A DNA stretch of 64,000 bases from an uncultured Opitutia bacterium. GTDB lineage: Bacteria > Verrucomicrobiota > Verrucomicrobiia > Opitutales > UBA953. Shown here piece by piece: positions 13,575-39,041 of this stretch (position 1 is its first letter; each line of letters begins with the position of its first letter). Below the pieces are notes generated by a model, which was not told where the DNA came from, did not search any database, and saw only the letters and a list, made by a program, of their open reading frames with translations. Both the position numbers and the translations under genes were made by a program. The stretch is from positions 248,001 through 312,000 of the forward strand of contig CAIOAN010000012.1 in the NCBI GenBank assembly GCA_903855995.1, in the 5' to 3' direction.

Positions 13575-14705
13575 TCAGACGAAAAGTGCTTTGACGGCGG
13601 TGATGACGCGATCGCGGTCGGCTTCGGTCATAGCGGAACCGGAAGGCAGGCACAGCCCCTGGGTGAAGAGGCGCTCGCTGACCTTGCCGCCGTGCATCTC
13701 GGCGCCGGCAAAGACGGGTTGCAGATGCATGGGCTTCCAGAGCGGCCGCGATTCAATGTTCGCTTGCTCCAAGGCGAGCCGCACCTGCTCGCGGGTGACG
13801 CCCGCGACGGCGGGATCGATCGTCAGGCAAGTAAGCCAGCGCGTCGACTGGCCCCACGGCGCCTCGGGTTGCATGGTCACCCCGGGCAGATTCTGAAAGG
13901 CGGCAGCGTAGGCCTTGAAGTGACCGCGGCGGCGGCCGACCTTGCCCGAGAGTCGCGTGAGCTGACCGAGACCGATGCTCGCCGAGATATTACTGAGGCG
14001 ATAATTGTAGCCGATGGTCGAATGCTCGTAATGTGGGGCGGCATCCCGCGCCTGGGTCGCGAGGAAACGCGCCTGCTTCGCGAGGTCAGCGTCGTCGGTG
14101 ACCAACATGCCACCGCCGGAGGTGGTGATGATTTTATTGCCGTTAAACGAATGGATGCCCGCGAGGCCAAAGGATCCCGGCGAAGCTTCGCCATAAGTGG
14201 CGCCGAGCGCCTCGGCGGCGTCTTCGATCAGCTTCACGCCATGCTGATCGCAGCAGGCTTTGATGGGGGCGATATCCGCCGCCTGACCGTAGAGGTGCAC
14301 GAGCACGAGGGCCTTGGGCGCCTTGCCCGCCTTGGCTTTCTGCTCGATGACGGCGCAGGCGAGCGCCGGGTCCATGTTCCAGCTGATCTCTTCCGAATCA
14401 ATGAAGACCGGCTTCGCGCCGAGATAGGTGATCGGCGAGGCCGAGGCGATGAAAGTCAGCGAGGAGCAGAGGACTTCGTCACCCGGGCCGACGCCAGCGA
14501 GGCGCAGCGCGAGGTGCAGGGCCGCGGTACCCGAAGAAAGCGCCACGGCATGCTGCGAGCCGACAAGCTGCGCAAAATCTTCCTCAAACGCATCGAGATT
14601 CGGCCCCACCGGCGCGATCCAATTGGATTGGAAAGCTTCCAGGACGTATTCGATTTCAGCGGAACCGATGTCGGGAGGAGAGAGGTAAAGGCGAGGGAGA
14701 GACAT
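13575..14705 (-). CDS. DegT/DnrJ/EryC1/StrS aminotransferase (PglE/EpsN-like)
   Basis: A 376-residue PLP-dependent sugar aminotransferase. It begins MSLPRLYLSPPDIG, has QHAVALSSGTAALHLAL for phosphate binding, LIEDAAEALGA, and the PLP lysine in GIHSFNGNKIITTSGGG. The SFNGNKIITT form is the one seen in PglE/EpsN enzymes that aminate C4 of UDP-4-keto-6-deoxy-GlcNAc. A PglD-like acetyltransferase lies about 2.5 kb upstream, supporting a bacillosamine-like sugar, but the PglF dehydratase is not in this window. An in-frame upstream extension would translate the 101-bp tandem repeat and is not believed. Confidence 0.85.
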   Translation of the reverse strand: MSLPRLYLSPPDIGSAEIEYVLEAFQSNWIAPVGPNLDAFEEDFAQLVGSQHAVALSSGTAALHLALRLAGVGPGDEVLCSSLTFIASASPITYLGAKPVFIDSEEISWNMDPALACAVIEQKAKAGKAPKALVLVHLYGQAADIAPIKACCDQHGVKLIEDAAEALGATYGEASPGSFGLAGIHSFNGNKIITTSGGGMLVTDDADLAKQARFLATQARDAAPHYEHSTIGYNYRLSNISASIGLGQLTRLSGKVGRRRGHFKAYAAAFQNLPGVTMQPEAPWGQSTRWLTCLTIDPAVAGVTREQVRLALEQANIESRPLWKPMHLQPVFAGAEMHGGKVSERLFTQGLCLPSGSAMTEADRDRVITAVKALFV

Positions 14706-15073
14706 GAGATTAAGGGCGTAAAAGTTTCGGGTGGCGGGTGGCAGCCCCGGGTGGCAGGTGGCGGGAAAAGCGGAGGCTAAGCGCCAAAAGGAAAGAGGAG
14801 GCCGGAAAGTTAGCTGGGATAAAAGTTTCGGGTGGCGGGTGGCAGCCCCGGGTGGCAGGTGGCGGGAAATGCGGAGGCTAAGCGCCAAAAGGAAAGAGGA
14901 GGCCGGAAAGTTAGCTGGGATAAAAGTTTCGGGTGGCAGGTGGCGGCCTCAGGTGGCGGGTGGCAGGAAAGTTACTTTGGGGTATTCTCTGATTACGGGT
15001 GGCGGGAAGTGCCTAGGGCACGGTGAGGAGTGTCTGTGATTTAACGGAAAGCCACAGAGACAATAGTGACTCT
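14706..15073. repeat. Composite element 2: 101-bp tandem repeat of module d
   Basis: A unit of 101 bp starts at 14720, 14821 and 14922. The first two units differ at one visible base (GGGAAAAGCGG versus GGGAAATGCGG) and the third is cut short. Each unit opens with module d (GGTGGCGGGTGGCAGCCCC and GGTGGCAGGTGGCGGG) followed by a purine-rich spacer. A diverged d copy continues to about 15005. The left half (14724-14768) is an inverted match to 15463-15507 beyond the four-helix-bundle gene. Confidence 0.9.
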
Positions 15074-15448
15074 ATGTGTGCCGCACCTATTGAACTTCGT
15101 GTCCTTGTCCTAGCAAATGAGCTTTCCGAGAGAATCTATCGCCTAACTGATGGCCGCGAATATCGGGGAGACGGCGTACTGCGAAATCAAATCCGGCGGG
15201 CTGGGCTTTCTGTTTCCAGCAACATCGCTGAGGGCGACGGAAGGAGATACAGCAAGGAAGGGGTGCGGTTCTTTCAGATCGCGATCGCCTCGGCCGAAGA
15301 ATGCAAAAGCCAACTTGGTGTAGCCGGTAAACTTGGGGCCATACCGAGAGACGAATCGATACGTGCCATCGAAGACTATTCCGTTGTCTGCAGGATGCTG
15401 AATCGGCTCATCGTATCCCGTAAATCTAGGGGCGACGGCCTAGAATAG
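15074..15448 (+). CDS. Four-helix-bundle protein, S23/IVP family
   Basis: A 124-residue helical protein of the 23S rRNA intervening-sequence (S23) or Avd-like family. The hallmark is RNQIRRAGLSVSSNIAEGDG, followed by RFFQIAIASAEECKSQL. The start MCAAPIELRVLVLANEL is chosen because family proteins begin close to this helix. It is the only plus-strand gene between 1 and 42 kb. It is bracketed by a 45-bp inverted repeat of module d, like the IVS elements of some 23S rRNA genes, but it lies in a protein-gene operon. Known relatives form pentameric barrels that bind nucleic acid; its role here is unknown. Confidence 0.8.
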   Translation: MCAAPIELRVLVLANELSERIYRLTDGREYRGDGVLRNQIRRAGLSVSSNIAEGDGRRYSKEGVRFFQIAIASAEECKSQLGVAGKLGAIPRDESIRAIEDYSVVCRMLNRLIVSRKSRGDGLE

Positions 15449-15462
15449 CCCGCCACCCGAAA

Positions 15463-15507
15463 TTTCCCGCCACCTGCCACCCGGGGCTGCCACCCGCCAC
15501 CTGAAAC
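15463..15507. repeat. Right inverted repeat (module d') of the S23 element
   Basis: These 45 bases are the reverse complement of 14724-14768 apart from about one visible mismatch. Together they enclose the four-helix-bundle gene and could pair as a long stem. A further diverged d' copy lies at about 15450-15462. Confidence 0.85.
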
Positions 15508-15516
15508 GAGTTAATC

Positions 15517-16239
15517 TTACTTCCACTTCCTATCCGCAAACACTCCCAGCGGAGCCAAGGCCTCGAATAAGGTCTTATTCAGGGGGTCCGCGATTAATTC
15601 CTCTATCCGCGCATTTGATGATATCCGAATAAACATCTGCTCATTCTTCTGATTAAATCCATAGGCTCGGATATCTTTAAAGACGAGCGGCAGGCGTTCA
15701 AGGCGGCCGAGCAATCCATTGCGCCAGCCCGCGGCCTGCTCTTCATACCGATTAGGTTCGCCGTTCACGAGGTGCCAGAAGGCGACGTTCTGCTTGCCAC
15801 CGCGCGGCACGAGATACTGGCCGTATTCATAAGGGAGCAGCTCCCGCTCGCCGACGCGGCCGGCGACAGCGTACCGCCGCTCGGTCCGCACACAGCCGTT
15901 GTTCACCCAACAGGAGTCCGGATTATGCGAACCGGCGTCGACGACCGACACTTTGCCGGGCTCCCAGTAGGCGACGTAGACCAGGATCTGCGTCGCGTCG
16001 CGCACATACAGCACCTGCGCCGCCTGGCTGAAATTTAAAATCCCCTGGGCGCTGGCCAACGCCGCCGAAGATCCGGCAATCGGAATCTCCTGTCGCCTCC
16101 AGCCCGCTACTCCCGGAAGCGCCCGGATGAGCTCGCCCGAAAACCGCCGCGGCCGCTGCGAGGCAAACTGCGCCGCGATGACCAGCGCGAGCAAGCCCAC
16201 GAGCATCCCGCCACCAAAAATCAGCAGGGCTTTGCGCAT
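15517..16239 (-). CDS. Exosortase-associated EpsI-type protein (DUF3485-like)
   Basis: A 240-residue protein with one N-terminal membrane anchor (residues 5-26) and an exported domain. The segment AGSHNPDSCWVNNGC matches the cysteine-containing pattern of EpsI proteins that accompany exosortases, and FWHLVNGE follows as in that family. EpsI partners are found beside exosortases in extracellular-polysaccharide loci, but no exosortase gene is visible here. It ends 9 bp from the module d' repeat and lies 1 bp after the PglD-like gene. Function in polymer export or protein sorting is inferred from the family. Confidence 0.65.
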   Translation of the reverse strand: MRKALLIFGGGMLVGLLALVIAAQFASQRPRRFSGELIRALPGVAGWRRQEIPIAGSSAALASAQGILNFSQAAQVLYVRDATQILVYVAYWEPGKVSVVDAGSHNPDSCWVNNGCVRTERRYAVAGRVGERELLPYEYGQYLVPRGGKQNVAFWHLVNGEPNRYEEQAAGWRNGLLGRLERLPLVFKDIRAYGFNQKNEQMFIRISSNARIEELIADPLNKTLFEALAPLGVFADRKWK

Positions 16240-16240
16240 T

Positions 16241-16867
16241 TCAAAGGATACGGGCGGGAATGCCCACGACCGTCACACCCGCTGGGACATCGGTGACCAC
16301 GACGGCACCGGCGCCGACGATGCTTCGGCTGCCGACGGACTTGCTCGGAATCACACTCGCGCGGCTACCCATGAAGACCCGATCGGCGACACGCACATGC
16401 CCGGTGATATCGCACTGCGCGCTCAGCGACGTCCACGCGCCGAGGGTCGCGTCGTGGCCGATGGTGCAATTGAGGTTGATCATCGCGAAGTCGCCGATGG
16501 CGATATCCGCGGAAAGAATCGCACCGGGGCAGACCACGACGCCGCGACCGAGTTTGACGCGCGCCCCGAGCAGGGCTGCCGGATGGATGAAGGTCAGGAA
16601 TTCCGCCCCCGCGGCGACGAGCGGCGCCACGAGCTTTTCCTTCAAGTCCGGCATCCCGAGGGCGCAGACATAAATATGCTCAGGGCTGGGGCGATGGCCG
16701 GCGAGCGGCGCCACGGGGGCGAAATCGCCGAATGGCGCGAGCGCCTGCGGGTTGTCATCGAGGAAGCCAGCCAAGGCCCATGCCCGTCCGCAGTCCGGAT
16801 GCTGGCCCGCCCAGGCATACATTTCGCGGCCAAAACCGCCGGCGCCAACAATCAGTAATTTCTTCAT
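16241..16867 (-). CDS. PglD-like sugar O/N-acyltransferase
   Basis: A 208-residue protein with the PglD architecture. The Rossmann-like N-terminal domain starts MKKLLIVGAGGFGREMYAWA. The left-handed beta-helix with hexapeptide repeats begins near residue 100 (ARVKLGRGVVVCPGAILSAD) and contains NLNCTIGHDATLGAW with the catalytic histidine. It would acetylate a UDP-4-amino sugar made by a PglE/EpsN-type aminotransferase such as the one at 13.6-14.7 kb. Its start overlaps the ACP stop (ATGA). An unusual acyl donor is possible because it is coupled to an ACP and a KAS III. Confidence 0.85.
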   Translation of the reverse strand: MKKLLIVGAGGFGREMYAWAGQHPDCGRAWALAGFLDDNPQALAPFGDFAPVAPLAGHRPSPEHIYVCALGMPDLKEKLVAPLVAAGAEFLTFIHPAALLGARVKLGRGVVVCPGAILSADIAIGDFAMINLNCTIGHDATLGAWTSLSAQCDITGHVRVADRVFMGSRASVIPSKSVGSRSIVGAGAVVVTDVPAGVTVVGIPARIL

Positions 16868-27631: not shown

Positions 27632-27754
27632 CTAATTTAGGGGGCAAGCTGGCACGTGGGGAGACGACTCACTTCAGGTGGCGGGTGGCGGCCGCAGGTG
27701 GCGGGTGGCGGGTAATTTACTTCCTGCCACCTGCCACCCGAAACTTGTTTCGGA
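27632..27754. repeat. Composite element 7 (e, d, d')
   Basis: Module e (AAGCTGGCACGTGGG) lies next to the glycosyltransferase start. It is followed by two d copies (CAGGTGGCGGGTGGCGG) and the inverted d' (CCTGCCACCTGCCACCC), making a foldback of about 85 bp without any gene inside. It resembles the S23 element at 14.7 kb in an empty state. Confidence 0.85.
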
Positions 27755-38868: not shown

Positions 38869-39041
38869 TTTTAGTTTAGGGGGCAAGCTGGCACGTGGGC
38901 ACGTGGATAAGGGGAGGTAGAGTGGCTTAGTTGACCAGAGGCTCGGAGGCTCAGGGGAGAGGCGATTTAACTTCGGGTGGCGGGTAAATAATCCTGCCAC
39001 CCGGGACCCGGGGCCGCCACCTGCCACCCGAAGCGATGCCT
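38869..39041. repeat. Composite element 12 (e, a, d, d')
   Basis: The gap contains e (AAGCTGGCACGTGGGCACGT), a (AGAGGCTCGGAGGCTCAG), then a foldback of module d: CTTCGGGTGGCGGGT on the left and CCTGCCACCCGAAG on the right, with another d' copy between. No gene is present. Confidence 0.85.

Follow-up and report, generated by a model that had tools for sequence, protein, structure and literature searches.

An S23 four-helix-bundle gene between inverted heptanucleotide arrays in an Opitutia genome, and similarly bracketed S23 genes in other bacteria

The S23 gene of the window, its ends and its dispersed repeats

In this study, the window, a stretch of 64,000 nucleotides from an uncultured Opitutia bacterium, was analysed around a small gene of the S23 (23S_rRNA_IVP) family that has protein genes on both sides (Table 1). 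As the initial annotation had stated, this gene lies on the strand opposite to its neighbours and is enclosed by an inverted repeat of about 45 bp with one mismatch. The pair 14724-14768 / 15463-15507 covers 45 nt and is 98% complementary, and a second pair of equal quality was observed further in, at 14825-14870 / 15462-15507 (46 nt, 98%). The left end is present in three copies, two of them within a 101-bp tandem duplication of end and spacer (14719-14920, 99% identical), which is apparently recent. The end of the element consists of degenerate 7-mers, namely GGTGGCR GGTGGCR, a short spacer and again GGTGGCR GGTGGCR. Since no Rfam families were matched within 14000-16500, the S23 gene of the window lies outside any rRNA gene, and the proposed likeness to the intervening sequences (IVS) of 23S rRNA, with an S23 reading frame between complementary ends but in a protein-gene locus, was borne out. 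The RNA fold computed for the element has its arms paired, with a z of -6.3 against shuffles.

Table 1. Coordinates of the S23 element, the neighbouring genes and the gene-less foldbacks in the window
Feature	Position	Strand	Evidence or remark
DegT/DnrJ/EryC1 aminotransferase, left neighbour, start codon towards the S23 element	13575..14705	-	Pfam PF01041, E 1.7e-101
Left end copy 1, GTTTCGGGTGGCGGGTGGCAGCCCCGGGTGGCAGGTGGCGGG	14719..14768	+	direct-repeat family D9, inverted pair I3
Left end copy 2, pairs with the right end; lies in the tandem duplication (101 bp) of 14719-14819	14820..14869	+	D11, 99% identity; I1, 46 nt, 98%
Left end copy 3, 88% to copy 1	14921..14970	+	D9
Innermost partial unit GGGTGGCGGG, pairs with CCCGCCACCCG immediately 3' of the S23 stop codon	14997..15007	+	
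S23 / 23S_rRNA_IVP four-helix-bundle protein, 124 aa	15074..15448	+	PF05635, E 8e-24; alternative start GTG at 15023
Right end, the left end inverted	15463..15507	-	I1/I3
Right neighbour, gene by which the orthologous site was located in congeners	15517..16239	-	no Pfam family
Further right-hand gene	16241..16867	-	
Gene-less foldback, ends and polarity as in the S23 element	27666..27751	+ then -	
Second gene-less foldback with these repeats, degenerate	38974..39032		sequence, I5

The protein scored 84.3 bits with PF05635 (curated cut-off 33.8) and 87.5 bits with TIGR02436 (curated cut-off 24, E 6e-25). Its AlphaFold model is a four-helix bundle (pLDDT 92), for which Foldseek returned 2GSC and 2RLD as the best matches (E 6e-5, TM 0.79-0.85), followed by Avd of diversity-generating retroelements (DGR), both free (4DWL) and in a reverse-transcriptase ribonucleoprotein (8UB7). 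The two solved homologues comprise five chains each, and the Xanthomonas campestris S23 protein has been called a homopentamer in the literature; by analogy with them, the window protein probably forms a pentameric ring. The relatives are mostly basic, with a median pI of 8.6 (9.2 for the window protein), and omega values of 0.04-0.14 show purifying selection on their genes. Only one of the 141 pairs of S23 proteins from the same genome exceeded 67% identity, indicating a single copy per subfamily. A single-copy gene accompanied by many repeats looks like the RAYTs rather than like insertion sequences (IS), though its persistence as a single copy also fits a host function. No nuclease or catalytic domain was evident in the S23 protein, and PF05635 was the only family found in the single gene of the element. 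A defence or phage gene was considered and rejected, with no match in PADLOC or PHROG. The Xanthomonas S23 protein XCC0516 was at most 58% identical to its best match in the class sample.

With reference to the dispersed repeats, GGTGGCNGGTGGCNG occurred 119 times in the 2.66-Mb genome, compared with 0 occurrences of a reversed control pattern. Repeats were counted genome-wide by pattern search and also in a 464-kb sample picked to include known sites, where the window repeat (module d, GGTGGCR) formed 38 clusters; 11 of these were inverted pairs, and all 11 were oriented as in the S23 element (p ~0.001). Over several repeat families, 21 of the 22 gene-less pairs displayed this polarity. These pairs have GTTTCRGGTGGCRGGTGGC or close variants in common at their ends, while their interiors of 20-220 bp are unrelated to the S23 element and contain nested RAYT-type REPs. 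Both foldbacks that had been regarded as empty versions of the unit proved to be real; the first is typical of the pairs, and the second is degenerate, with one heptad pair on the left and two on the right. The common polarity marks them as relatives of the S23 element, but with unrelated interiors their descent from it by internal deletion is unsupported.

Other dispersed 7/8-mer modules, GCACGTGGGCACGTGG and GTTGACAAGTTGACC, were noticed at several places between 18176 and 38960. They are similar to the ends of certain congeneric S23 elements, namely the RDLVVW type with GGGACACGTGGGCACGG and the element of G007:C133 with TGACAAGTTGACACG. No S23 gene that matches either module was found in the source genome, and the modules are possibly orphan arrays.

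Inverted 7- and 8-mers at S23 genes in other genomes

The source genome harbors five S23 genes, and all five lie in an inverted repeat, each with a different repeat (GGTGGCR, GCGGTTR, CATCTGY, GTTCYTK and an 8-mer of GAGGCYC type). One of the five, at C12:3553-3867, has an in-frame TGA and appears to be a gene in decay whose bracket is still intact. Across 38 genomes of the order, a flanking inverted repeat with a score of 15 or more was present at 69 of the 84 S23 genes, whereas 240 random positions drawn from the same loci gave none. In named genomes of many phyla (Bacteroidota, Clostridia, Planctomycetota, Acidobacteria, Proteobacteria, Chloroflexota, Cyanobacteria, CPR bacteria and one archaeal MAG), 43 of 78 S23 loci were bracketed, against 2 of 234 controls. 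The right array sometimes overlaps the end of the S23 reading frame; with the windows therefore extended into the gene end, the counts rose to 73/85 in the order and 48/78 in the named genomes, as compared with 2/260 for the controls. Additional loci, mainly from gammaproteobacteria, were bracketed in 31 of 41 cases, and 14-38% of the S23 genes were without a clear bracket at the threshold used. Among the other ORFs in the deliberately repeat-rich sample of the source genome, from which the S23 gene itself was excluded, 21 of 330 were bracketed. Chance or a repeat-rich genome was rejected as the cause on the strength of these controls, and so was a curiosity of module d alone, given the brackets at other S23 loci in the order and in the named genomes. 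The initial annotation had proposed a search of other genomes for S23 genes with flanking repeats of the window type, with homologues that lack repeats counting against its view. The opposite of such a lack was found, as the inverted-array bracket is general for S23 genes, while a link to module d alone proved too limited, the 7- or 8-bp repeat being a different one in every S23 subfamily.

A tandem period of 7 or 8 was best in most S23 flanks, and the left and right periods were equal in 63 of 69 cases. In their units of about 7 bp, the S23 flanks agree with the short tandem heptanucleotide repeats (STRR/LSSR). Among non-syntenic loci of the genus, right flanks were no more similar than background where the proteins were less than about 65% identical, and their similarity increased beyond that value. 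Judged from these flanks, the repeat goes with the S23 protein subfamily. This correlation partly reflects descent of the unit as a whole; it is compatible with recognition of the repeat by the protein and is no proof of it.

Occupied and empty sites

The initial annotation had also asked whether strains differ by presence of the unit, and the orthologous site between the DegT gene and the right neighbour is variable among congeners. The site is empty in four of them, with 20-40 bp of intergenic sequence, is taken by a gene-less GTGCAAAG pair in G062 and by other repeats in G019, and in further congeners carries S23 elements of at least four kinds: a GGTGGC element (G000, G007, G061), a GTGCAAAG element (G008, G020, G021 and others), a CGGGT-type element (G004, G048, G052) and an ACCGGAA element (G001, G024). 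The RDLNLW and EEIEAW subfamilies were found at different loci in congeners, with homology stopping at the repeats. Short hairpins were observed outside the ends of the RDLNLW element (L090, L100, L058), whose stems, GCGAAGGTTC, GCGTCGCTTC and GAGGCGCTTC, vary by species at the same site and keep their self-complementarity.

Pairs of occupied and empty sites were also obtained from cyanobacterial plasmids, with flanks 84-99% identical and inserted units of 0.4-0.5 kb. In Calothrix brevissima a unit of 518 bp replaces 11 bp of the empty site of Nostoc carneum, Tolypothrix and Aulosira. The element of Nostoc C052 (486 bp) replaces 42 bp of the site in Nostoc C057, and Nostoc ATCC 53789 has a gene-less heptad foldback at this position. 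The unit in the nrd operon of Nostoc edaphicum (494 bp; empty in Calothrix NIES-4105) and that between cmr2 and cmr3 of Picosynechococcus PCC 7003 (429 bp; empty in PCC 7002) each replace 13 bp. The unit of Trichormus variabilis (420 bp; empty in Nostoc linckia, flanks 97-99%) shows a candidate 8-bp duplication, GTAATWAA. The five comparisons gave no consistent target-site duplication, with a candidate in one and a replacement of 11, 13, 13 and 42 bp in the other four. An empty site common to several genera marks the insertion as the derived state. Comparison of these sites demonstrates that the S23 unit is mobile and that S23 elements insert into intergenic gaps, mostly within operons and usually with a small target replacement.

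The operons split by S23 elements in cyanobacterial plasmids (L333, L335, L341, L342) include nrdA-nrdB, cas6-cas4 (twice) and cmr2-cmr3. In Dolichospermum, the cas6-cas4 site of the Anabaena 90 element is occupied by another insertion, a different foldback GTAGGTTGGGTTGACGC...GTTGGGTTGCGCTGTCGCTTAACCCAACCTAC at L352:560-830. IVP genes have been noted in cas loci (PMC3936711), and these can simply be read as S23 elements inserted into cas operons, since such an insertion is seen directly in the occupied site of Picosynechococcus PCC 7003 and the empty site of PCC 7002.

An IS association was observed in two cyanobacteria. Calothrix PCC 7103 harbors seven near-identical S23 genes (L281, L285, L288, L292, L295, L297, L298) as passengers of an IS, with the transposase end upstream of S23 and TGCCCTC heptads downstream; this IS has captured an S23 unit. 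These copies were rejected as proof of self-transposition, as they travel as IS passengers. In Nostoc HK-01, the S23 gene adjoins an IS transposase.

Interpretation and comparison with known systems

The S23 elements are best read as a family of selfish insertions that is REP/RAYT-like or IVS-like. Our main reading, to which we give a probability of roughly 0.6, is that of a small selfish S23 element of about 0.4-0.8 kb, in which an S23 gene between inverted 7/8-bp arrays serves its own repeats, and we infer that S23 is the driver of insertion. The S23 ring would recognise its own arrays, as folded single strands or as RNA, and together with host enzymes it would maintain, copy or insert DNA that ends in such arrays, as RAYT does for REP/REPIN. 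The gene-less foldbacks and solo arrays would then be non-autonomous relatives of the element.

The same protein family and layout are found in the rRNA IVS, where a short rRNA loop is replaced by a stem and RNase III cuts the IVS from the transcript (PMC4990558), and the S23 element may accordingly be viewed at the RNA level alone. The transcript arms would fold, RNase III would excise them, S23 would bind the excised RNA, and the spread would follow an unrelated DNA or RNA route; excision of the stem would make insertion into operons and rRNA tolerable. The folding of the window element, the insertions that sit inside operons and replace few target bases, and the fold that S23 has in common with Avd, a ribonucleoprotein part, are in line with this explanation. 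Nevertheless, we consider it unlikely, because any perfect inverted repeat would suffice for it, and the many solo arrays, the tandem 7/8-bp architecture and the period retained on both arms are left unexplained.

Another transposase, of RAYT/IS200 type or of another IS, might instead move the repeat-flanked DNA with S23 as cargo. Roughly half the genomes of the genus have Y1 transposase (RAYT) genes, and the S23 genes of Calothrix PCC 7103 and Nostoc HK-01 do accompany IS genes. However, the RAYTs examined in the genus are bracketed by their own GTAG-type palindromes and not by 7/8-mers (L255, L257-L259 and L261-L266, with GGTAGGGTCAGCACTGCGTGCTGACCTAG and others, in several sequence types), so that they speak against RAYTs moving the heptads, serve as a positive control for a gene with its own repeats, and led us to reject the heptads as belonging to RAYTs. 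Furthermore, no Y1 transposase was detected in G012 and G022, which harbor six and four S23 elements and are both incomplete genomes, and the tight cross-phylum pairing of the S23 family with inverted 7/8-mers would be left unaccounted for, making this cargo role quite improbable. Still more remote is a retro-element in which S23, being related to Avd, enlists a reverse transcriptase in trans that copies the folded transcript back into DNA. The structural match of S23 to Avd within DGR ribonucleoproteins and the insertion without consistent duplication are compatible with it, but of the 25 genus genomes searched, most of which carry S23 elements, a single one had a PF00078 match, and the source genome gave none; a DGR or retro-element is thus very improbable. 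With the RAYTs having their own palindromes and reverse transcriptase nearly absent, S23 itself serving its repeats is the best explanation.

In a broader form, which we put forward only tentatively and at somewhat less than even odds, S23 proteins would confer both specificity and mobility on a class of selfish DNA that crosses phyla and spreads without a recognisable nuclease. The ring protein would recognise tandem arrays of 7/8 nt, which would be copied via host replication or repair; the unexplained heptads of Nostoc, Xanthomonas and further bacteria would be products of this process, and the rRNA IVS a special case. PF05635 is widespread and labelled only as four helix bundle or ribosomal S23, and its placement in a mobile element offers a testable role. 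The S23 elements would constitute an overlooked selfish class, to which many of the 7- and 8-base repeats scattered over bacterial genomes may be due, and they are a possible source of the heptanucleotide repeats that have long been recognised in cyanobacteria and Xanthomonas. Should S23 work alone with the enzymes of the host, it would represent a novel mode of DNA spread.

The open-access literature yielded a paper on the Coxiella IVS, the remark on cas loci and the papers on heptads, but no earlier mention of inverted 7/8-mers around S23 genes that lie outside rRNA, and priority for this link is not certain. Heptanucleotide repeats have been described as GGGAATC in Xanthomonas and GGGGAYT in Nostoc, with no gene linked (Rehm et al., PMC4692102), and as TAACTGA in Beggiatoaceae (PMC4679880). 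Like the S23 flanks, these repeats of Xanthomonas, Nostoc and Beggiatoaceae, together with LSSR/STRR, are intergenic tandem units of 7 bp with degenerate sequence, and the Xanthomonas pairs are convergent, X. campestris also having an S23 protein (2GSC); unlike them, they were described as repeats only, and the link to a gene is absent. MITEs and foldback elements are likewise short, have inverted ends and do not encode a transposase themselves, whereas the S23 ends are tandem 7/8-mers, showed no regular target-site duplication in the five comparisons and are partnered by a gene that codes for no known transposase. Avd has the four-helix-bundle fold and is structurally related, but no reverse transcriptase or template/variable repeat was found at the S23 loci.

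The closest layout is that of the 23S rRNA IVS of Leptospira and Coxiella, which also hold a PF05635 protein within complementary ends, replace a small piece of the target and have a sporadic, mobile distribution; the S23 element differs from them in lying outside rRNA, in having arms made of 7/8-mer arrays, and in repeats that are dispersed without the gene too. The RAYT (TnpA_REP)/REPIN system resembles the S23 element in its single-copy gene between inverted copies of a dispersed extragenic repeat, in its gene-less inverted pairs of fixed polarity, and in purifying selection on the gene. It differs in that S23 is an unrelated four-helix bundle with no HUH domain and in that the S23 repeats are 7/8-bp tandem arrays (GGTGGCR at the window) and not GTAG-tagged palindromes; the two systems coexist in the genus, each with different repeats.
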